Source of the DNA: Comamonadaceae bacterium
Lineage (GTDB): Bacteria > Pseudomonadota > Gammaproteobacteria > Burkholderiales > Burkholderiaceae_C
NCBI GenBank assembly: GCA_013297985.1
Contig: JAAFIY010000002.1
Location: forward strand, 1 to 64,000
DNA: 64,000 nt
Reading direction: 5' to 3'
The stretch's first letter is position 1. Each line of letters begins with the position of its first letter. A program made the translations under genes and the position numbers. The notes under the pieces are model-generated. The model had not been told where the DNA came from. It made no database searches and saw only the letters and a program-made list of their open reading frames with translations. Shown here piece after piece: positions 5,958 to 18,590 of the stretch.

Positions 5958-6692
5958 CTACGGCATCAACTCCTCCTCATCGCGCCGCCCCCGCTTGCCC
6001 ACGCCCCGTGCCAACAGTCGTTCGGTCCGGGCAAGGTCACGTCGGATGCTGTCGGCATTGCCTTCTTGGCCCGCCATTTCCAGCCACTCGCAGACCCGGC
6101 GCATTTCTTCAATCAGCATCTGCAAGGCCGCCAGCACGGCGTTGGGGTTGTCGCCTCGGTCGTTGACTTCGTGGGCGGCGTCCAGCTTGCGCAGCAGGGC
6201 GGCTAGGAACTCGGCGCGTCCGTCTGCGAAGGTTTGCACCCGTTGCGGTTTGATGCCGCTTTGGGTGAGCGCGTCGGCGACGCCTGCCACGCCCCGGATG
6301 TATCGGTACCCAACGATGCAGGCCATCACCCCACAGGCCCGCCTGGGGTGGCTGGATGGGGCGGCGAATTGCGAATCGATCTCGGTTCCGGTCAGGAACT
6401 CCGCAGCTAGGTGCAGTGCGCGGGTGACATCCCTAGGCAGGTGGTACGTGGCGTCAGCCCCCCATAGGCCTTCGGTGCCGGGCTCCACAAATCCGGCGTG
6501 CCGGGCATCACAGTAGCCAGCAATGACCTCGCTAGGCGGGGTGCTGAGTTTGTTGTCAACCGTTTGCGTCTTGCGTTTGTACAGGCTTGCGCGGCCTTGC
6601 ACGGGGGCGTTCACCAGATCGCGCAGGCGGTCGTACAGGGGGTGTGGGCTGTTGTAGTCGTCGAGGTATTTCATGGTGTGGGCGTAACTCAT
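5958..6692 (-). CDS. Hypothetical protein of the integrated element
   Basis: ORF 244 aa, MSYAHTMKYLDDYNSPHPLYDRLRDLVNAP... Confidence 0.6.
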   Translation of the reverse strand: MSYAHTMKYLDDYNSPHPLYDRLRDLVNAPVQGRASLYKRKTQTVDNKLSTPPSEVIAGYCDARHAGFVEPGTEGLWGADATYHLPRDVTRALHLAAEFLTGTEIDSQFAAPSSHPRRACGVMACIVGYRYIRGVAGVADALTQSGIKPQRVQTFADGRAEFLAALLRKLDAAHEVNDRGDNPNAVLAALQMLIEEMRRVCEWLEMAGQEGNADSIRRDLARTERLLARGVGKRGRRDEEELMP

Positions 6693-6737
6693 GGCATGGG
6701 TTCCTAGGTTGTGGTCGGGTGGCCTTTCGGTGGATTT

Positions 6738-6758
6738 GTCACACCGGGGCGGTGTGAC
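6738..6758. promoter_or_regulatory. Candidate operator (perfect 8-bp inverted repeat GTCACACC-ggggc-GGTGTGAC)
   Basis: Located 46 bp upstream of the start of the 5958..6692 minus-strand gene. Confidence 0.4.
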
Positions 6759-6847
6759 AGCGGTTTGAAGGGGCGGTGTTAGCTTTTGGGTGGCATGTCG
6801 GGCGCTCCTTGTGAAATCGTTAGGTTTGGGTGGTTTTGGGCCAAGAG

Positions 6848-7115
6848 TGGGTCAAGCAAAGGGGGGGTGCAAAAAATGCTTGGCCCGGCTGGAACCCGCG
6901 CCAGTGCTCGCTTGGTCCGGGTGGGTCAAGTGGGCTGGGCAGTTTTCGGTTTCGGCATTTGGTGGGTGTTTGGGTGGGCGGGGGGCCTGTCACAGAAACT
7001 ATTTCTCCAACTTCAAAAAATGCTTGACCCACTTGACCCACCCGGACCAAGCCAATATCCATGCGGGTTTCAGCGGGCCAAGCATTTCTGGGGGACCCCC
7101 CCGATGCCTGACCCA
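6848..7115. repeat. Large imperfect palindrome with TGGGTCAAG iterons; candidate replication origin of the element
   Basis: Arms about 6848-6934 and 7028-7115; 25-bp perfect core GCTTGGTCCGGGTGGGTCAAGTGGG (6910-6934) and its reverse complement (7028-7052). Confidence 0.7.
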
Positions 7116-7136
7116 CCCGGCCCGATTGAATCGGAG

Positions 7137-9608
7137 CTATTCACTTAACAAAACCTTGGTTTTTTCGGTGAAGGTGCTGCGGAGAACGGGCAGTGGAGGC
7201 AGCACATCAATCCACTCGCGGGCGGTGCCGTTGCGCTGTCGCCTCTTGGCGATGCCCTCGGGTCCGGCCCACTCGTTCAACCTGCGAGACACTGCCGCAT
7301 AGGGGAGCGCATGCCACCCCCGTACCGTTGCCGACTGGTCATAGGACAAGCGCAGCCCGGCGCGGTCGATTTCCGTCTCACTGTCGCCAAGGGTCACCCG
7401 TCGCTCGACCCCCCCCGAGTGCCAGCGCACAGCGCCTTCGCTCAGGCAGTTGGTCCACCAAGCCACCACGGGGTCACGCAGCGCCGTGAGTTCGATCTGT
7501 TTGCGCAGCGGTTCGCCCTTGGGGATCGCCCTTGGGTTGAAGCCGGTCAGGTCTAGGTTTTGCAGGTAGTGCAGCAGCACCCCGGCCCGCGCGTCGGTGT
7601 TTGCGATGGCGTGGTAAGCCTCCCAGGCCTTGAGCTTGGCAAGGTCCACTTCGCCGCTATCCAGATTGGCCCGCAGTGAGCCGCCCATGTCGATCACTAC
7701 AGCCCGGCGCTCGTCGGGCGTCGCCTGCCAAGCGTGCTCATGGTTTGTGAGAATGACGAAAGCGCAGCGGTTGATGCCTTGCACCGGGTCAAATTTCTTT
7801 TGCTCGTACATCATGGCCCGCGCCGTGATGCGGTTCTTGAAGGCGTCGGCCTGCTTGGGGTCGCGGGTGGCTACGGCTTCATTCAGCACCGCCAGGGCCT
7901 TGTAGATCAGGTGCCAAGTGAACCGCCCCGCGACCAGTTCGGAGCTGTCGGTCACCATGGCGTGACGACCAAATATCTTCAGCAGGGGAACAAACAGGCT
8001 ATCTTTGCCGACGCCCTTCCCGCCCCGGAAGATCAGCACCGTGTCAGGCACGTCGCCGGGGTTTTGAATCTTCCAAGCGATCCAACACAAGACATAGAGC
8101 CGCTGCTTCGGGTCGGGCACCAGCGCCGCCAATACGTCCAGCCACCACGTGACATCACCGGGGGCGGGGGCAACTGCCCAGCCTGTCCATAGCTGTAACT
8201 TGTTAAGTGGCACCACTTTGCCGGGGGTAAACACGGTGCCTTCGTAGCGCCTCGTGTCCGGGTGGCTGAGCCAGTAAGACACCAATGACCGTGGCTTTTG
8301 GTTGGGGCCTTGCGCAGGGGCGAACTGGTGAGCGTGCCGCATTCGCAGTGCGTGAAGCTCGATCAGTTCCACAACCTTCATGCCTGTCTCATCGTCCGTG
8401 GCTTCATGGTCAACGATTGCGGTCACCCGCCCGGCAAGAATGGAGTAACGTATGAAAAACTGGGTTGTTTGGTCCACGCTGTCGATCCCACCGCTGGCAG
8501 CGTCCAACGTGCCCAACTGGACAGCCGGGTTCTTGATGCGCCCACGGTGTCTGCAGACCCCGCACGGCCCGCCTGGGCCGTAGGCATCGGCCCACTTGTC
8601 ACAACCCGCTGGGCCACCTGTCAGGCTGGCCAGCTTGGCGTCCGTTTTGGCGGGGTCATAGTCAGCGTGGCCGCTGCTGATCTGGTGCGCGAACTGCACA
8701 CCCTCCACGGACAGCGCCGCCGTGCGCAGCGCCAGCACCCACACCGGGTACGCCACCCCTGCGCCGTTGTCTTTGGCAGCCAGGGCAAGCGCCCCGCATT
8801 CCTTAGCGGCCTTGACGTAGCTAAACGGCTTGTGGTCGGCTTCCAGCACATCGGCATTGATGCTCTGGGCCGCACTCGCTACTGCTGCGGGTGCCGTGAC
8901 TGGCTCAGGCACGTAGCCAACCCCCTCGCTCAACTCCGCGAGCGTGTAGCGCTCTTTGCGCCACAGCACCGCCTTGACTTCGCGCTTAGTTTTCTGGTGC
9001 AGCGAACCGGGGGCACGCATGATCCGCGCCGCGTCGGTAGTTACTTGGGCATCGATCTTCAGCCCGACCTTGGCGCACAAAGCCCGCAGCGCTTGCGCCC
9101 GCTGGAGCCAAGCTTCAGGCACCACCCATGCATCCAAAATCCAGTAGGCATGTAGACCACCGCTGCCCGTCGGCACTACCACGTTGGGGACTGGAAGGCC
9201 GTCGCTGACCGCCTGCTTCAATGCCCCGGCTGTTGCCTTCGGCCCCTCGTATCCACCCTTGGCCACGGTGCCTTCGATGTCGATAACGATGACCCGCAAG
9301 CCCACCACGTTGTCAGCGCTGCGGCCTTTGAAGTCGGTTACTTTGGCGGCGTCAAACGCGGCCAGGGTGTAGTACGCGGGGCATCGCCCCGTTACTTTGT
9401 CGGGTGCCCACTGGCTGAATGGCGCACCGCGTCGGTTCCACATGTGGCGCACCGCGCCGCCCTCAGCGCCGGGCAAAAACACGGCCCCTTGTATGCCGGT
9501 GGGATGTCCGACCGCCACCATGTCGAAGAACTCAGCCACCGCCAGGACGGTTGCACGCGGCTGCGCTTGCGCCGCCGCCGCATCAATTTGCTTCGGGTCA
9601 GGTACCAT
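7137..9608 (-). CDS. Phage/satellite primase-helicase (prim-pol-like N-terminus + DUF5906 helicase)
   Basis: N-term VIDIEG...VVPTGSGGLHAYWILD...DAARIMRAPGSLHQKT; C-term VLIFRGGKGVGKDSLF (Walker A), TPDERRAVVIDMG. Confidence 0.88.
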   Translation of the reverse strand: MVPDPKQIDAAAAQAQPRATVLAVAEFFDMVAVGHPTGIQGAVFLPGAEGGAVRHMWNRRGAPFSQWAPDKVTGRCPAYYTLAAFDAAKVTDFKGRSADNVVGLRVIVIDIEGTVAKGGYEGPKATAGALKQAVSDGLPVPNVVVPTGSGGLHAYWILDAWVVPEAWLQRAQALRALCAKVGLKIDAQVTTDAARIMRAPGSLHQKTKREVKAVLWRKERYTLAELSEGVGYVPEPVTAPAAVASAAQSINADVLEADHKPFSYVKAAKECGALALAAKDNGAGVAYPVWVLALRTAALSVEGVQFAHQISSGHADYDPAKTDAKLASLTGGPAGCDKWADAYGPGGPCGVCRHRGRIKNPAVQLGTLDAASGGIDSVDQTTQFFIRYSILAGRVTAIVDHEATDDETGMKVVELIELHALRMRHAHQFAPAQGPNQKPRSLVSYWLSHPDTRRYEGTVFTPGKVVPLNKLQLWTGWAVAPAPGDVTWWLDVLAALVPDPKQRLYVLCWIAWKIQNPGDVPDTVLIFRGGKGVGKDSLFVPLLKIFGRHAMVTDSSELVAGRFTWHLIYKALAVLNEAVATRDPKQADAFKNRITARAMMYEQKKFDPVQGINRCAFVILTNHEHAWQATPDERRAVVIDMGGSLRANLDSGEVDLAKLKAWEAYHAIANTDARAGVLLHYLQNLDLTGFNPRAIPKGEPLRKQIELTALRDPVVAWWTNCLSEGAVRWHSGGVERRVTLGDSETEIDRAGLRLSYDQSATVRGWHALPYAAVSRRLNEWAGPEGIAKRRQRNGTAREWIDVLPPLPVLRSTFTEKTKVLLSE

Positions 9609-9664: not shown

Positions 9665-9916
9665 TCAGGCCGCTTCACGCTCGGTGCGCAGCCGGTGGTT
9701 AGTGACGGCGCTGGCAGCGGCCTTTTTCAGCACCGCCAGACGCTCGTTCAGCGAAAGCGCCGCAGCCGCCAGACGGGCAACGTCGCTCGGTGTTTTGACC
9801 CCCTGGGAGGTCATTGCGCCGTCTAGCAGTAGCAACATGCGCCGCAACTGGTCGGCGCTGTGCAGTTCGGCTTCTTCAGCCTGGGCAAGCTCGGTTTTGA
9901 GGTCTTCGCCGGTCAT
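9665..9916 (-). CDS. Hypothetical small protein
   Basis: MTGEDLKTELAQAEEAELHSADQLRRMLLLLDG...; ATGA overlap with the upstream helicase stop at 9913. Confidence 0.55.
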   Translation of the reverse strand: MTGEDLKTELAQAEEAELHSADQLRRMLLLLDGAMTSQGVKTPSDVARLAAAALSLNERLAVLKKAAASAVTNHRLRTEREAA

Positions 9917-10779
9917 GCGCTGCGCTCCCGCTTTTCCTCGGGCGTGGCATGCCTGCTTGTGATATCGCCCGGCCCGGCCCACTCTTTGAGCTTCTTGAGG
10001 GCATCGCCCTTGGGGATGGCACGCGGGTTGAAGCCGCGCACATCCACCCGCTGGAGGTAGTGCAGCAACGCCCCTGCGCCCGTGTTTACCCATGCGTGGT
10101 ACTTGCTCCAGAACTCCAAATTGCCGCGCAGCCCTTCGCCCACATCAATGACCACGGCGCGGCGTTCATCGGTGGTGGCTTGCCACACATGCCCGCCGTT
10201 GGTCAGCATCACGTAGGCGATCAGGTTTCTACCCGGTATGGGTTCCAAGCCTTTGGACTCGTAGTGCATCAGCTTGGCTGTGACCCGTGCCTTGATGGTG
10301 GCGGCCTGCCTGGGGTCGCCAGTGAACACCGCTTCATCCATCACGACGAACAGCATGTGCATCAAGTGGCCGGTGAAACGGCCCGCCACAAGCTCGGGGT
10401 TGTCGGCCAACATGGCATGCCGCCCGAAGATGGCCATCAGGGGGTCAAACAGGCTGTTTTTGCCGGTGCCCTTTGCGCCCCGGAATATCAAGATGGTGTC
10501 GGGCACGCCGCCTGGGTTTTGAATCTTCCAAGCTAGCCAATTCAGCACGTACGCCCGGTACGCGGGATCGGGCACCAGCGCCGCCAATACCTCAAGCCAA
10601 GGCTGCACATCGCCCGCCACGGGTTCCACGCCAAAGCCCTGGTACTGGTTCAGCATGTCCGGCCCTAGCGCGTTGCTGGGGTCCAAGGCCATGCCCTCGG
10701 CTTGTCGCCGGTTGGGGTGGTTCAGCCAGGCTGCGGCCAGCGGGCGCGGTTTGTCGCCGGTTGGGGTGGTGTTGCTCAT
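9913..10779 (-). CDS. Stand-alone DUF5906-type helicase (paralog of the C-terminal domain of the 7137..9608 product)
   Basis: ILIFRGAKGTGKNSLFDPLMAIFGRHAML...TTDERRAVVIDVGEGLRGNLEFW; collinear with the larger protein. Confidence 0.82.
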   Translation of the reverse strand: MSNTTPTGDKPRPLAAAWLNHPNRRQAEGMALDPSNALGPDMLNQYQGFGVEPVAGDVQPWLEVLAALVPDPAYRAYVLNWLAWKIQNPGGVPDTILIFRGAKGTGKNSLFDPLMAIFGRHAMLADNPELVAGRFTGHLMHMLFVVMDEAVFTGDPRQAATIKARVTAKLMHYESKGLEPIPGRNLIAYVMLTNGGHVWQATTDERRAVVIDVGEGLRGNLEFWSKYHAWVNTGAGALLHYLQRVDVRGFNPRAIPKGDALKKLKEWAGPGDITSRHATPEEKRERSA

Positions 10780-11018
10780 GCTGCGACCCCTTCAACAGCT
10801 TCAGCGTGACGAGCAATCCACCGCGCCGGGTCGGATGCCCACGCATCGACGTCCGACGCCGACCAGCGGGTGAACTTCGGCCCTAGCCGCAGCACCGGCT
10901 GCGGAAACTGCCCGCGCTGCATCAGGTTGTAAATCTGACTGCGCGACACGCGGCAGCGTGCCGTTACGTCGGGCTGGCTGTAGAGCCGTGGCCCCAGGGT
11001 TTGACTCGTTTGGTCCAT
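10776..11018 (-). CDS. AlpA-family HTH regulator / excisionase-like protein
   Basis: QPDVTARCRVSRSQIYNLMQRGQFPQPVLRLGPKFTRWSASDVDAW. Confidence 0.85.
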   Translation of the reverse strand: MDQTSQTLGPRLYSQPDVTARCRVSRSQIYNLMQRGQFPQPVLRLGPKFTRWSASDVDAWASDPARWIARHAEAVEGVAA

Positions 11019-11092: not shown

Positions 11093-11512
11093 TCAGCCGG
11101 TTGGCGGATCGTCAGGGTTGACCATTAGGGGCACGGTGTGCGTGAGTGACCCGCGCAGCAACTGCCCGAGCATCGGGGCAACTGGCACACTGATAACGCT
11201 CACAGGCCCACGCAGCGCAGCGCTTGCCCGCGTGCGCACGTTGCGTTCGTTGACCAAAAACTCTGCCGCAGCGTGCGCCGCCGCAGATCGGATCGACACG
11301 CCATAGGCGCGAACGAGGTACACCGCCAGTTGCACCGCCTGCTGTGTGGGCGATTGGGGCGCGGGCTTACGTCCCGGGCGCTTGCCAAATGCCGCCCGCT
11401 CAAACTCATTGCGTGGCCTGGGGGGCACATCCCCCTTGCAAGCACGGTCCCAGGCTTCCTCCAGCGATTGGGCAGCTTTGGGGGGCCTACCCCGCCCCCG
11501 TGCCCCGCTCAC
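11093..11512 (-). CDS. Hypothetical protein
   Basis: 139-aa ORF in the same operon direction. Confidence 0.5.
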   Translation of the reverse strand: MSGARGRGRPPKAAQSLEEAWDRACKGDVPPRPRNEFERAAFGKRPGRKPAPQSPTQQAVQLAVYLVRAYGVSIRSAAAHAAAEFLVNERNVRTRASAALRGPVSVISVPVAPMLGQLLRGSLTHTVPLMVNPDDPPTG

Positions 11513-11543
11513 CTCGGCGGGCTGACTCTCAAGGCCAGCGCTA

Positions 11544-11981
11544 TCACTTGCTGCCTCCCAGTCTCTCCAACGCTTTCTCGATCAACCGACCGAGCGCTTC
11601 GGCCATCGATGTGGGCATGTTGTCGTCGGAATGAGGTTTCGCGGCCACTGCCCGAAGAACGGCAATCATCAAGACGGTGGGGACAGTAAAGAGGGGTATG
11701 AGAATCGCTAACGCCACATGCCAAAGGTAAGCTACGTGGGCATTTCGCAGCAGTTCGTACGCAGCGTACAGCCCAGCCACGTAAAGCACGGCAGCGATCA
11801 CCAACGCGCCGTAGCCAGCCACGCGCCGAATGTTGTGGCTTTGCCGACCATCAAGGTCTATTTGGCGCTCTTCCTTGCCCGAGTTTGGGTCCGCAGGTAG
11901 TTTGTCCCGCCCCCGATCTGGCAGGGGCGGCACCTCTTGCGCAGCACCCACTAACGCGCCCGAACCTTCAGGAGGTTGCAT
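11544..11981 (-). CDS. Small membrane protein, candidate PanT-type toxin
   Basis: Two predicted TM segments (YGALVIAAVLYVAGLYAAYELL; YLWHVALAILIPLFTVPTVLMIAVL); overlaps the Panacea gene by 14 nt. Confidence 0.6.
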   Translation of the reverse strand: MQPPEGSGALVGAAQEVPPLPDRGRDKLPADPNSGKEERQIDLDGRQSHNIRRVAGYGALVIAAVLYVAGLYAAYELLRNAHVAYLWHVALAILIPLFTVPTVLMIAVLRAVAAKPHSDDNMPTSMAEALGRLIEKALERLGGSK

Positions 11982-12477
11982 GCTCAGCGACTTTGCCCTG
12001 CGTTAGTTGCGCAACATAGTAAGCGCGGACTTGCTGGTCGGGCAGCACTGCAACCTTCGAGTGCCGGGCAGCCTCCCACGGCCCCCCAGCTTCGTGGGTG
12101 ATCGTAGACAACTGCCGGGCGCTCAGTGACGAATAGCGCTCCCAAACGCGATCAAGCAAGCCCCAAAACTGGGAGTCGCTCTGGACCGGCATAAGCGCTT
12201 TCCGCTCGCCGCTCAGCGGCTCAATCTGCAGCAGGTAAGCGTCTATCTCGCTGGACCCAAAGCCCTTTAGGTCGTGATAGAGGGAGTCAAAGACCGGCCC
12301 GTACTGCCACGCCTGCGGGCGCTCGGAGACCACACTTTCAGTGAAGAAAACGAGGCTCCAAGCGTGCATGAAGAAAACCAGCTTCTGAACTTTCAAATGC
12401 GTCAGGCGTACGCCTTCCTGCCGAGCCTTAAACAGCATGGCATTCGCAACAAGCCGGGGTGTGTACTGAGCAGTCAT
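11968..12477 (-). CDS. Panacea-domain (SocA-like/GepA-like) protein, putative antitoxin
   Basis: VANAMLFKARQEGVRLTHLKVQKLVFFMHAWSLVFF...PQAWQYGPVFDSLYHDLKGFG. Confidence 0.85.
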   Translation of the reverse strand: MTAQYTPRLVANAMLFKARQEGVRLTHLKVQKLVFFMHAWSLVFFTESVVSERPQAWQYGPVFDSLYHDLKGFGSSEIDAYLLQIEPLSGERKALMPVQSDSQFWGLLDRVWERYSSLSARQLSTITHEAGGPWEAARHSKVAVLPDQQVRAYYVAQLTQGKVAEHATS

Positions 12478-12687
12478 GGGGCATCAATATTGACGGCAGT
12501 CGACCCATTTTTCAATTGCAGGGTCACAACATCATGTGAATTTTTTTCCGTTTTTACCAGCACTTTTTTGCCTTTTAGGGCGCGAGGCGTCGTCTTGTCA
12601 CGCTACATATTTTATAGCATGCACATCGAGAGGGTTTGTTCTTACTTGCAGTACCTTGCCACGAACCTGTGGCAAGCTAAAAAGCGC

Positions 12688-13905
12688 TCACGCTGCCAGC
12701 CTCACAAACGGCAGCACAGTGCCCCGCTGCATGCCTTCGAGCAGGTTGCCCCATTCCTGCATCATCCGCGCCCGCTGGGTGAGGTACTGCGCGTGGTTGT
12801 AGGCCGCTGATACCGCGTTGCGCTCTTGGTGGGCTAGCTGGGCTTCGATGTGGGCGTGCTCAAACCCATGTTCGTGCAGCACCGTGGAGGCGATGCCACG
12901 GAAGCCGTGCCCGGTCATCGTGCCTTTGTAGCCCATGCGCTCTAGGGCTTTGAGGATGGTGTTGTTGCTCATCGGCCCACGCGGGTTGCGCTCGCCTGGG
13001 AACAGGTGTTCGCGGTGTCCGGTGACTTCCCGCAGCACTGCCAGCACTTCGACTGCCTGGGTTGACAGGGGCACCACATGGGGGGTTCGCATCTTCATCC
13101 GCTCGGCTGGAATGTCCCAGCGCCGCGCCTCAAGGTCGAACTCGGTCCACTTGGCACCGATCAACTCGCCGGTGCGAACGAAGGTGAGCGCCATCAGCTT
13201 TATGGCCAGCCGGGTCGCGGGCGTGCCTTGGTAGCCTTCAATTTTGCGCAGCAGGGTGGGCAGTTCGCGCACATCTACCCGGGCATAGTTCAACTTCTTG
13301 CGCTCGGGCAGGATGTCGCCCGGCTTGATGTCGGTGGCTGGGTTGCGTGTGGCTCCGCCTAACCCGTGTGCGATGGCGTAGCGAAACACCTGCCCCGCCA
13401 TTTGCAGGCACCGCGCAGCAATGTCCACAGCGCCCCGCGCCTCGATGGTCTTGAGCATCTTCACGAGGTCGGGCGCTTGCACCTCGGCAACGGGGCGGGC
13501 ACCGATGGCGGGGAACACATCAGCTTGCAGCCGCGCAATGACGTAGCCCGCGTGCCTGGGGTTCTTGCCCGTCCTCCAGTGGGCATGCCACTGCCGCGCC
13601 ACGGCTTCAAAGGTGTGGGTGCGGGCTTGTTCTCGCTGGGCTAGCTGGGCGCGTTTGACCTCGATGGGGTCGGCCCCCTTGGCGATCACTTTGCGCAGTT
13701 CGTCGCGCTTGTCGCGGGCATCGGTCAGGCTCACAGCCGGGTAGCTGCCAAGCGATGCGGTCCTTTCGCGCCCCTCATGGCGGTAGCGCAGTTGCCACAG
13801 CTTGGACCCTGTTGGCTGGACAACCAACTGCAAGCCCTTTTCGTCGGTGAGTTTGTACGGCTTGTCGCTGGCTTTGGCCTTGCGAATAGCGGTGTCGGTC
13901 AGCAT
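12688..13905 (-). CDS. P4-type tyrosine integrase
   Basis: MLTDTAIRKAKASDKPYKLTDEKGLQLVVQPTGSKLWQLRYRHEGRERTASLGSYPAVSLTDAR; C-term TGHGFRGIASTVLHEHGFEHAHIEAQLAHQ...AYNHAQYL. Confidence 0.95.
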   Translation of the reverse strand: MLTDTAIRKAKASDKPYKLTDEKGLQLVVQPTGSKLWQLRYRHEGRERTASLGSYPAVSLTDARDKRDELRKVIAKGADPIEVKRAQLAQREQARTHTFEAVARQWHAHWRTGKNPRHAGYVIARLQADVFPAIGARPVAEVQAPDLVKMLKTIEARGAVDIAARCLQMAGQVFRYAIAHGLGGATRNPATDIKPGDILPERKKLNYARVDVRELPTLLRKIEGYQGTPATRLAIKLMALTFVRTGELIGAKWTEFDLEARRWDIPAERMKMRTPHVVPLSTQAVEVLAVLREVTGHREHLFPGERNPRGPMSNNTILKALERMGYKGTMTGHGFRGIASTVLHEHGFEHAHIEAQLAHQERNAVSAAYNHAQYLTQRARMMQEWGNLLEGMQRGTVLPFVRLAA

Positions 13906-14159: not shown

Positions 14160-14249
14160 TGGCGGAGGGGGCGGGATTCGAACCCGCGGTGGGGATTAAC
14201 CCACACACGCTTTCCAGGCGTGCGACTTAAACCGCTCATCCACCCCTCC
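14160..14249 (-). tRNA. tRNA-Ser (anticodon GGA)
   Basis: Minus strand GGAGGGGTGGATGAGCGGTTTAAGTCGCACGCCTGGAAAGCGTG...GGGTTCGAATCCCGCCCCCTCCGCCA; long variable arm; encoded CCA. Confidence 0.95.
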
Positions 14250-14705: not shown

Positions 14706-15638
14706 TTATCGGTTGGTGGGGGTGGCGCCGCCGACTTGCACCATCTTCATGGCTGAGGTGATGAGGGCCGAGACTTCCGTCATGTTGCTGGGCACGATCA
14801 GGGTGGTGTTGGCGTCGGCGGCCACGCGGCCGTATGAATCAACCGCTTTTTCAGCCACCCGCAGTTGCACCGCTTCAATGCCGCCGGGCTGGCGAATGGC
14901 CGCTGCAATGCGCGAAATGGCGTCTGCCGTGGCTTCTGCCACCGAGGTGATGGCCGCAGCCTCGCCCTGCGCGTTGTTGATCTGGGCCTGCTTTTCGCCT
15001 TCAGACTTGGCAATGAAGGCTTGGCGCTGGCCCTCAGCCAAGTTGATTTGTTCTTGGCGCTTGCCTTCAGACGCAGCGATCAAACCGCGCTTTTCGCGCT
15101 CAGCGGTAATTTGCTGCTGCATGGCGTGCAGGATGTCTTTGGGCGGCGTCAGGTCTTTGATCTCGTAGCGCAGCACCTTCACGCCCCAGTTCAGGGCGGC
15201 TTCATCAATGGCGGTGACGATGCTGTGGTTGATGGTGTCGCGCTCTTCAAAAGTTTTGTCCAACTCCAGCTTGCCGATCACGCTGCGCAACGAGGTTTGC
15301 GCAAGCTGTGTGACGGCCATGATGTAGTTGCTCGACCCATAGCTGGCGCGCATTGGGTCAGTCACTTGAAAGTACAAAATGCCGTCAACCTGCAACTGGG
15401 TGTTGTCGCGGGTGATGCAGACCTGGCTGGGCACATCCAGCGGGATCTCTTTCAAGCTGTGGCGGTAAGCCACGCGGTCGACAAACGGCACCAGAAAGTT
15501 CAAGCCCGGGCCCAGCGTGGCTTGGTACTTGCCCAGCCGCTCGACCACCCAGGCGCTTTGCTGCGGCACCACCTTGATAGAGCGCACGATGAAGATCAGC
15601 GCCACCACAAACACAATCACGGCCAGTGCGACGTCCAT
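14706..15638 (-). CDS. SPFH/band 7 (stomatin/QmcA-like) protein
   Basis: VPQQSAWVVERLGKYQATLGPGLNFLVPFVDRVAYRHSLKEIPLDVPSQVCITRDN. Confidence 0.95.
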   Translation of the reverse strand: MDVALAVIVFVVALIFIVRSIKVVPQQSAWVVERLGKYQATLGPGLNFLVPFVDRVAYRHSLKEIPLDVPSQVCITRDNTQLQVDGILYFQVTDPMRASYGSSNYIMAVTQLAQTSLRSVIGKLELDKTFEERDTINHSIVTAIDEAALNWGVKVLRYEIKDLTPPKDILHAMQQQITAEREKRGLIAASEGKRQEQINLAEGQRQAFIAKSEGEKQAQINNAQGEAAAITSVAEATADAISRIAAAIRQPGGIEAVQLRVAEKAVDSYGRVAADANTTLIVPSNMTEVSALITSAMKMVQVGGATPTNR

Positions 15639-15680
15639 TTGGCTGCTCCCTTAAAGATAGGTCAAGAAAAACGGGCCTTG

Positions 15681-15722
15681 CGCCCTAAATTAGGGCGTAT
15701 CTAGCTATACTCTTTGTAGCAC
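15681..15722 (+). repeat. Dispersed two-hairpin repeat, copy 1 (overlaps the nfeD stop codon)
   Basis: CGCCCTaaattAGGGCGtatctAGCTAtactctttgTAGCacc. Confidence 0.65.
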
Positions 15723-16142
15723 CAGGCGGTTGCCATCCAGCGCCTTCACCCGGTGTACCCCGGGCTCTGGCGCGGTGCCGGGTTCGGGCCGGGCGCTCCA
15801 TTGGGCGCCGCGGTATTTAACGCGGGCCGATCCATCGGGCTCCCAGCGCTCTACATAGACGGTTTCGCCCACGTCCAGCACTACGTTCACGTCGGCCATG
15901 TGCGCACCGCCCTTGGCTTGCACCGCTTTGCGCCGCACGCTGTACCAGGCAAACACGGCCAGGCCACCCACGGCCGCAGCACTGATGAGCTGCCCCACCA
16001 GCGGCAGGCCCAGGTGCGCCGCCACGGCGCCGGCGGCCATGCCCAGCCCCACCATCAACAGGTAGAAGCTGCCCACGAGCAGCTCAGCGCCAATCGTCAG
16101 GGCGGCCAAGATCCACCACACAAGGGCAGGAGACAAATCCAT
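15705..16142 (-). CDS. NfeD family protein
   Basis: MDLSPALVWWILAALTIGAELLVGSFYLLMVGLGMAAGAVAAHLG; downstream partner of the SPFH gene. Confidence 0.88.
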   Translation of the reverse strand: MDLSPALVWWILAALTIGAELLVGSFYLLMVGLGMAAGAVAAHLGLPLVGQLISAAAVGGLAVFAWYSVRRKAVQAKGGAHMADVNVVLDVGETVYVERWEPDGSARVKYRGAQWSARPEPGTAPEPGVHRVKALDGNRLVLQRV

Positions 16143-16328
16143 CTGTGCACGCTCCGTTGAGTTGGGCCGCCACTGGGTGTGGCTGCCGCGCAAGCCCCAG
16201 CTGTAGGGGCAACGCGACATCACTGCAATTGATTGTGAGACAAAAGCCGCCTGCCGCGCCAATTTCGTCAAGTCGAACCCATACACTCTGCCGCTCTTTT
16301 TGTGCCCAGCCTTGTGGAGCGTGTGTCC

Positions 16329-18590
16329 ATGAAATTTCGCTTTCCGATCGTCATCATTGACGAGGACTTCCGCTCTGAAAACACCTCTGGCCTGGGCATT
16401 CGCGCGCTGGCGCAGGCCATTGAGGCTGAAGGGTTTGAAGTGCTGGGCGCCACCAGCTATGGCGACTTAAGCCAGTTTGCCCAGCAGCAGTCGCGCGCCA
16501 GCACCTTTATTTTGTCCATTGATGACGAAGAGTTCACCCCGGGGCCCGATCTAGACCCCGCCGTGCTCAATTTGCGCAGCTTCATTGACGAAGTGCGCCG
16601 CAAAAACGCCGACGTGCCCATCTACATCTACGGCGAAACCAAAACCAGCCGCCATTTGCCCAATGACATCCTGCGCGAGCTGCACGGCTTTATTCACATG
16701 TTTGAAGACACGCCCGAGTTTGTGGCGCGCCACATCATTCGAGAAGCCAAAAGCTACCTAGAGGGCATTCAGCCGCCCTTTTTTAAAGCGCTGCTGGACT
16801 ACGCCGAAGACGGCAGCTATTCATGGCATTGCCCAGGCCACTCGGGCGGCGTGGCGTTTTTGAAGAGCCCCGTGGGTCAGATGTTTCACCAGTTTTTTGG
16901 TGAAAACATGCTGCGCGCCGATGTGTGCAACGCGGTGGAGGAACTTGGCCAACTGCTCGACCACACCGGCCCGGTGGCCGACAGCGAACGCAACGCCGCG
17001 CGCATCTTTAACGCCGACCACTGCTTTTTTGTCACCAACGGCACCAGCACCAGCAACAAGATGGTCTGGCACCACACCGTGGCGCCGGGCGACGTGGTGG
17101 TGGTGGACCGCAACTGCCACAAAAGCGTGCTGCACAGCATCATCATGACGGGGGCCATCCCCGTGTTCTTGAAGCCCACGCGCAACCACTTCGGCATCAT
17201 TGGGCCCATTCCCAAAAGCGAATTTGAGCCCGCTGCCATCCAAGCCAAGATTCGCGCCAATCCGCTCTTGGCGCATGTGGATGCGGCCAAGGTCAAGCCG
17301 CGCGTGCTGACGCTCACCCAAAGCACCTATGACGGCGTGCTCTACAACACCGAAACCATCAAAAACATGGTGGATGGCTATGTGGACAACCTGCACTTTG
17401 ACGAAGCCTGGTTGCCGCACGCTGCGTTTCATCCCTTCTATGGCACCTACCACGCGATGGGCAAAAAGCGCGAACGCCCACGCACCACCATGACCTATGC
17501 CACCCAATCCATCCACAAGCTGTTGGCGGGCATCAGCCAAGCCAGCCATGTGCTGGTGCAAGACGCGCAAGAGGTCAAGCTAGACCGGCATCTGTTCAAT
17601 GAAGCATTCCTGATGCACACCAGCACCAGCCCGCAGTACAGCATCATTGCTAGCTGCGACGTGGCTGCGGCCATGATGGAGCCGCCGGGCGGCACGGCGC
17701 TGGTGGAAGAAAGCATCACCGAGGCGCTGGACTTTCGCCGCGCCATGCGCAAGGTGGACGAGGAATACGGCCAAGACTGGTGGTTCAAGGTCTGGGGCCC
17801 GGCGGTGTTGGCCGACGAAGGTGTGGGGCGCGCAGATGACTGGATCATCAAGGCCGACACCAAGAGCAGCAAATGGCACGGCTTTGGCAAGCTGGCCCCG
17901 GGCTTCAACATGCTCGACCCGATCAAGGCCACCATCGTCACCCCCGGCCTGGACCTGGAAGGGCGCTTTGACAAAACCGGCATTCCGGCGGCAGTAGTCA
18001 ACAAATTCTTGGTGGAACACGGCGTGGTGGTGGAAAAAACCGGCCTGTACAGCTTTTTCATCATGTTCACCATCGGCATCACCAAGGGCCGCTGGAACAC
18101 CCTGCTGACCGCGCTGCAGCAGTTCAAAGACGACTACGCCAAGAACCAACCGATGTGGCGCGTGATGCCCGAATTTGTGGCTAAGCACCGCCAGTACGAA
18201 CGCCTGGGCTTGGCTGACTTGTGCCAGCGTGTGCATGAGCTCTACGCCAAATACGACATTGCGCGGCTGACCACCGACATGTATTTAAGCGATCTGCAGC
18301 CCGCCATGAAACCCGCCGACGCCTACGCCCACATTGCGCGGCGCGAGACCGAGCGGGTGCTGATTGATGAACTGGAAGGCCGCGTCACCACCAGCTTGGT
18401 CACGCCTTACCCGCCAGGCATTCCGCTGCTGATCCCGGGCGAGGTGTTCAACCGCAAGATCGTGGACTACCTGAAATTCTCGCGCGAATTCAACGGCCTC
18501 TTGCCTGGATTTGAGACCGACATCCACGGCCTGGTAGAAGAAGAACGGGACGGCAAAAAGATGTACTTTGCCGATTGCGTCAAGCGATAG
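16329..18590 (+). CDS. Arg/Lys/Orn decarboxylase (PLP-dependent, biodegradative type)
   Basis: MKFRFPIVIIDEDFRSENTSGLGIRALAQAIEAEGFEV...DGSYSWHCPGHSGGVAFLKSPVGQMFHQFFGEN...TQSIHKLLAGISQAS. Confidence 0.95.
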   Translation: MKFRFPIVIIDEDFRSENTSGLGIRALAQAIEAEGFEVLGATSYGDLSQFAQQQSRASTFILSIDDEEFTPGPDLDPAVLNLRSFIDEVRRKNADVPIYIYGETKTSRHLPNDILRELHGFIHMFEDTPEFVARHIIREAKSYLEGIQPPFFKALLDYAEDGSYSWHCPGHSGGVAFLKSPVGQMFHQFFGENMLRADVCNAVEELGQLLDHTGPVADSERNAARIFNADHCFFVTNGTSTSNKMVWHHTVAPGDVVVVDRNCHKSVLHSIIMTGAIPVFLKPTRNHFGIIGPIPKSEFEPAAIQAKIRANPLLAHVDAAKVKPRVLTLTQSTYDGVLYNTETIKNMVDGYVDNLHFDEAWLPHAAFHPFYGTYHAMGKKRERPRTTMTYATQSIHKLLAGISQASHVLVQDAQEVKLDRHLFNEAFLMHTSTSPQYSIIASCDVAAAMMEPPGGTALVEESITEALDFRRAMRKVDEEYGQDWWFKVWGPAVLADEGVGRADDWIIKADTKSSKWHGFGKLAPGFNMLDPIKATIVTPGLDLEGRFDKTGIPAAVVNKFLVEHGVVVEKTGLYSFFIMFTIGITKGRWNTLLTALQQFKDDYAKNQPMWRVMPEFVAKHRQYERLGLADLCQRVHELYAKYDIARLTTDMYLSDLQPAMKPADAYAHIARRETERVLIDELEGRVTTSLVTPYPPGIPLLIPGEVFNRKIVDYLKFSREFNGLLPGFETDIHGLVEEERDGKKMYFADCVKR

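Follow-up and report, generated by a model that had tools for sequence, protein, structure and literature searches.

The window (the whole 64-kb stretch of DNA that was analyzed) contains a noncoding, imperfect palindrome of ~288 bp located directly 3' of a primase-helicase gene. The palindrome is very probably the replication origin of the element in which it lies, and the 9-bp units composing its arms are the predicted binding sites of the adjacent PrimPol-helicase. In silico comparison places it, as a candidate, among single-locus iteron origins situated 3' of a primase-helicase gene, of the SaPI, Cch2 and P4 crr kind. A candidate origin had been proposed here in a sequence-only reading, and this proposal is strongly supported, because (i) the array, and not its spacers, is conserved in related loci, (ii) the same architecture occurs 3' of DUF5906 genes elsewhere, and (iii) the P4 crr site has an array at the corresponding place.

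The arms of the palindrome are composed of 9-bp units (TGGGTCAAG or TGGTCCGGG), grouped into two clusters per arm (Table 1). In a fold of positions 6835-7130 the arms pair out to ~6837 and 7124, i.e., over ~105 nt each; they were rightly described before as inverted, with too short a length of ~87 nt. Complementarity is 76% between 6885-6946 and 7016-7077, further arm pairs are found at 6861-6887/7074-7100 and 6847-6868/7095-7116, and the perfect 25-bp core reported earlier (GCTTGGTCCGGGTGGGTCAAGTGGG) was recovered at 6910-6934 and 7028-7052. The same is true of all the listed copies of TGGGTCA(A/G)G (6848 and 6922 on the plus strand; 7023, 7032 and 7107 on the minus strand), to which additional TGGTCCGGG units at 6913 (+) and 7041 (-) can be added; the 9-bp pair at 7023-7041 was picked up independently by Tandem Repeats Finder. 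As already noted in that reading, the array is noncoding and abuts the 3' end of the primase-helicase gene, whose stop codon is separated from it by 12 bp, and on the other side it is flanked by the start of ORF 5958-6692. With z = 7.3, it surpasses every other inverted array of 9-bp period in the window, where 7 of the 210 tiles outside the locus have z above 3. The central segment is mildly A+T-rich (the primase gene has 63% GC), and its GC content in related loci is 37-50%. Pattern search and a whole-locus scan revealed no second iteron cluster in the element. A separate perfect 10-bp inverted repeat with a 3-nt gap (TGTCACACCG/CGGTGTGACA; 6737-6759), operator-like in appearance, is present between the array and ORF 5958-6692.

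Table 1. Features of the inverted array and of the surrounding element (positions in the window).
Feature	Position	Strand
Whole inverted iteron array (imperfect palindrome), proposed replication origin	6837-7124	.
Outer cluster, distal arm: TGGGCCAAG (6837-6845) and TGGGTCAAG (6848-6856)	6837-6856	+
Spacer, distal arm, 56 bp	6857-6912	.
Inner cluster, distal arm: TGGTCCGGG (6913-6921) and TGGGTCAAG (6922-6930)	6913-6930	+
Central segment, ~92 bp between inner units, 52% GC; proposed melting region	6931-7022	.
Inner cluster, primase-proximal arm: tandem TGGTCCGGG-TGGGTCAAG-TGGGTCAAG, then CATTTTTT	7023-7049	-
Outer-inner spacer, primase-proximal arm, 57 bp; unit-to-unit 66 bp	7050-7106	.
Outer cluster, primase-proximal arm: TGGGTCAGG (7107-7115) and degenerate CGGGCCGGG (7116-7124)	7107-7124	-
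Protein of 244 aa beyond the array, without assigned function	5958-6692	-
PrimPol (AEP) + D5/NrS-1-type SF3 helicase (DUF5906) + C-terminal domain, 823 aa; proposed initiator	7137-9608	-
AlpA-type regulator/excisionase	10776-11018	-
Tyrosine integrase of the element	12688-13905	-
tRNA-Ser(GGA), likely integration site	14160-14249	-

The proposed initiator shows matches to the DUF5906 helicase family (E = 3e-13) and to PHROG DNA primases, and its helicase half has sequence similarity to the NrS-1 primase, its closest solved relative (6k9c/6k9e/6lrb). A model of the C-terminal half (pLDDT 54), which backs a fold match only and no DNA-binding mode, matches NrS-1 and, weakly, the SaPI5 primase-helicase (7ola; E = 0.04). 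The whole-protein model was poor (pLDDT 43), and its use was restricted to the AEP part (about 70-80); this N-terminal part matches AEP PrimPols, namely the S-2L PrimPol (6zp9; E = 4e-9) and RepB' (3h20). A PriS-like HMM match of the same protein was weak and below the cut-off. Given the AEP PrimPol fold, the primase half is not a homologue of P4 alpha, to which the earlier label "P4-alpha-like" does not apply. Directly upstream, a second DUF5906 ORF (9913-10779, minus strand) encodes a helicase only and shares 58% identity with residues 436-706 of the full-length protein; it is possibly a relic, or a regulator competing in mixed rings, and no iteron array belonging to it stood out in the window scan.

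Judging from the sequence, the surroundings (a tyrosine integrase, AlpA, a SocA/Panacea protein and tRNA-Ser) are those of a small integrated element. Its mobility is only putative, because a search covering 14160-14249 and the left flank did not turn up a directly repeated copy of the 3' end of tRNA-Ser that would mark the other boundary. No packaging gene was recognized in it.

Scanning of genome contigs with a two-copy protein alignment yielded five related loci (L009-L013; 50-54% protein identity) of Polaromonas, Rhodoferax and a beta-proteobacterium, four of which (L010-L013) have a tRNA-Ser gene upstream, none being seen in L009. Locus L009 ends at a contig edge, and the gene match in L013 stops early. 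The array recurs immediately behind the primase gene in four of these loci, L009-L012, whose proteins show 52-54% identity. The distance between outer and inner units is exactly 66 bp in all five arrays (the window and L009-L012), and the inner units lie 101 bp apart in L010 and L011, as in the window, and 105 bp apart in L012. Sequence conservation is seen in the units and not in the spacers: relative to L010-L012, the units of the window show 76-81% identity, vs. 18-47% for the spacers and centre. A region not conserved in related elements, which the sequence-only reading had named among its grounds for refutation, was thus not what was found. In the distant locus L026, TGGTCAGGG-TGGTCATAG units are followed by TATTTTTTGAAGTT, recognizably the CATTTTTTGAAGTT of the window, and the array is kept with the initiator gene there as in L009-L012.

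In the window the AAG-type units, tandem copies included, have the sequence TGGGTCAAG on either arm, compared with mostly TGGTC(C/T)AAG in the relatives (unit TGGTCTAAG); same-strand tandem units of the window thus differ from those of the relatives in concert. Since base pairing ties cross-arm partners and not tandem neighbours, a trans-acting reader of the units is the simpler cause, and the array looks like protein-read DNA rather than RNA.

Several other features of these loci were recorded. The primase-side outer-inner spacers of L009-L012 contain a small local dyad, whose sequence varies between loci (AAGTGCTAT..ATAGCACTT in L009, AGCGCTATTA..TAATAGCGCT in L012, GCTAT..ATAGC in L011). 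Just past the array of L012, an element of Polaromonas CG9_12, there are two equal 564-aa ORFs (11456-13150 and 15619-17313), which are probably duplicated insertion-sequence genes. Protein scans of viral contigs found no relatives, a 20-base iteron pattern likewise had no match there, and a DNA similarity search of phages and plasmids returned nothing relevant.

The array folds strongly, both as DNA (z = -10.0 vs. dinucleotide shuffles) and as RNA (z = -12.6 and -9.8 for the minus and plus strands, respectively), and none of 200 shuffles folded as well. If the DNA acted as an extruded hairpin or as a single-strand start site, the model put forward for the pRN1 stem-loop, the enzyme would read this fold and not the 9-bp units. 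Besides the fold itself, two observations speak for such a structure: the window spacers also pair across the arms (SW 24 vs. 6.9 for shuffles; 44 of 57 nt paired), and pRN1 depends on a stem-loop of ~100 bp, located downstream of the PrimPol gene (PMC4234260). However, when the arms were compared in relatives, as had been suggested earlier, the units were found to persist, whereas the cross-arm similarity of the spacers is much weaker in L010, L011, L012 and L026 (SW 9-11; shuffles 6.1-6.3). Moreover, a Klebsiella plasmid (L035) carries tandem units in direct orientation only, a Roseomonas plasmid (L032) has direct-inverted-direct clusters, and no 9-bp array was seen in phage BPP-1, a near-identical sister of BIP-1, for which a pRN1-like stem-loop has been reported. 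We therefore favour iterons over structure, to whose use extrusion may contribute, and regard a fold-reading enzyme as unlikely. The idea that the pRN1 and BPP-1 stem-loops are hidden 9-bp arrays was dropped, as BPP-1 shows none.

A structured RNA had been named before as the alternative; it could belong to the primase mRNA as its 3' UTR or serve as a leader of ORF 5958-6692, and the very stable RNA fold and the adjoining primase stop codon agree with it. We nevertheless consider it improbable, since the only Rfam match of the array (MIR7127) scored 35 bits, far under the gathering score of 100, and was discarded as a chance hit, and since pairing does not require the tandem copies to change together. 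Direct-only and three-cluster layouts at the same position elsewhere, and a 9-bp period common to P4 crr, also argue against an RNA.

Recurrence of the architecture was scored as the best pair of mutually inverted two-unit tandems (lags 6 to 14) relative to 100 dinucleotide shuffles; this shuffle-calibrated score replaced a strict tandem test, which missed the distal arm of the window because the two units of that arm differ. For a first set of 33 DUF5906 loci (the window family, other elements, plasmids, phages and P4), partly hand-chosen and including close relatives, the mean lag-9 z over the 450 bp that follow the gene on its 3' side was 4.36, and 19 loci exceeded 3. The corresponding controls gave 0.14 for the 450 bp 5' (1 of 31 above 3) and 0.38 for the CDS end (0 of 33), and lag 9 was the best lag in 18 of the 33 loci. 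Because of the composition of this set, a second, independent sample of 40 DUF5906 loci was obtained by searching 573 genomes of the class and phylum with Pfam. Its mean z was 4.40, with 24 of 40 loci above 3 (CDS-end control, 0 of 40) and lag 9 best in 22; an array was present behind 20 of the 24 ORFs of at least 700 aa and behind 4 of the 16 shorter ones.

Unit sequences vary widely between loci (TGTGACGCT, AGGTAACGC, TGTGCAGGG, TGGCACGGG, TTTTCCACG, ACCCTGGAC and others); the pattern TG....GGG fits many arrays, not all, and is not claimed as a universal consensus. In 16 of 18 scans of a whole replicon or locus, the top-scoring place was no more than ~500 bp beyond the 3' end of the gene. 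On small plasmids, the top array of the whole replicon lies 3' of the DUF5906 gene in five of seven; the plasmids with this position include Vibrio vulnificus pMP1, the Roseomonas plasmid, a Citrobacter plasmid, pMNOD07 and Proteus pW47-1, for which no replicon is named in the PLSDB typing shown. The direct tandem of the Klebsiella plasmid, made of ATAATCCCA units without an inverted set, occupies the same place.

The array is not universal 3' of DUF5906 genes: it is absent from plasmid pRHB09, from most shorter ORFs and from some phages; in RDJL1, CN1, YuA, BPP-1 and Chi no array of 9-bp period reached significance (z up to 2.5). A DNA polymerase gene lies nearby in CN1 and YuA, for which reason their enzyme may serve the fork instead of initiation. 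Inverted arrays with a best period of 8, not 9, occur at the same place in Citrobacter plasmid pC-202212 and in loci L088 and L090. The unit TGGTCAGGG is common to Microcystis phage MJing1 (1454-1663), L026 and L069, in each case behind a DUF5906 gene, and its presence in a cyanobacterial phage and in proteobacterial elements points to initiators of related specificity in different phyla, or to horizontal transfer.

The distribution of the arrays also bears on two explanations that involve no origin. Iterons can double as operators, and ORF 5958-6692 starts 145 bp downstream of the array, so that a cluster of operators, through which some DNA-binding protein would regulate this ORF or the primase operon, has to be considered. 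It is nonetheless very improbable, because the array is found 3' of the primase gene whatever gene comes next: a homologue of ORF 5958-6692 occupies the same place in L011 (37% identity over 163 aa), but is absent from L012, which retains the array next to an unrelated ORF. The array is also the top one of the replicon on most of the small plasmids tested. Partition (centromere) and packaging sites can likewise be repeat arrays. Such a function is extremely unlikely here, as no partition or terminase families were matched among the element proteins searched, and the array accompanies the primase-helicase gene in plasmids, elements and phages alike.

An origin in this position would have known counterparts. 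In SaPIs, the origin is located directly downstream of rep and is recognized by the C-terminal domain, and Cch2 of SCCmec binds direct repeats downstream of its own gene (PMC7581432); these staphylococcal systems, likened to the window by position and description, share with it iterons directly downstream of a D5/Primase_Cterm helicase gene. GN-PICIs, alike in layout and not in sequence, combine int, alpA and a primase gene (pri) with an ori downstream of the latter (PMC10111431). The resemblance to P4, already drawn in the sequence-only reading, holds for the iterons immediately 3' of the primase-helicase gene (alpha), with annotated 8-bp type-1 crr units spaced 9 bp apart on both strands (lag-9 z = 3.9). 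It does not extend to the two-site arrangement of P4, which has crr and a distant ori1, whereas the window element has one cluster. Furthermore, crr is composed of two 120-bp direct repeats and not of one large palindrome, the unit sequences differ, and P4 alpha is of the TOPRIM type (PMC4234260), in contrast to the AEP enzyme of the window.

Plasmid pRN1 likewise encodes an AEP PrimPol-SF3 helicase and has its origin, with a large inverted repeat, downstream of the gene; the ~100-bp stem-loop is required (PMC4234260). Its authors report no iterons (PMC4234260), in contrast to the window, whose arms consist of them, and a conserved structure without iterons is not what was found here, where units are conserved and spacer pairing is weak in relatives. 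NrS-1 differs in that it is reported to use an 8-nt priming sequence, present twice in the genome (PMC7102993), and not an array. Origins (for Cch2, the binding site) downstream of the primase/rep gene are thus already known from SaPI, Cch2, GN-PICI and pRN1, and P4 crr is found there too. No description of a 9-bp inverted-array rule for PrimPol-DUF5906 replicons was found in the open-access literature searched, an absence that is no proof.

SaPI Rep and Cch2 both use the C-terminal domain to bind iterons that lie downstream of their own genes (PMC7581432). On this model, and on that of P4 alpha at its annotated crr site, the PrimPol-helicase would bind the 9-bp units, probably via its C-terminal domain. 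The two inverted unit sets would load two helicase rings facing each other across the ~92-bp centre, which would be melted between them and primed by the PrimPol domain, and the host replisome would take over after excision of the element. The facing clusters suggest two rings and bidirectional opening, as argued on symmetry grounds for pRN1 (PMC4234260).

Beyond this element, we consider it rather likely that the locus exemplifies a general origin architecture of PrimPol-DUF5906 replicons, in which inverted 9-bp clusters flank a centre of ~90 bp immediately 3' of the gene, covering integrated elements, some phages and untyped cryptic plasmids, with units that diverge as the private address of each initiator. 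As a predictive rule, a full-length DUF5906 gene would be followed by an inverted 9-bp array with element-specific letters, as were 20 of the 24 sampled in Pseudomonadota. This gives candidate origins, and a means of typing and grouping, for small plasmids and satellite-like elements without a recognized replicon. It also opens the recognition of iterons by initiators with D5-type helicases to a direct test, in which units or C-terminal domains are exchanged. If the general architecture holds, the origins and incompatibility groups of untyped replicons would be readable from sequence.
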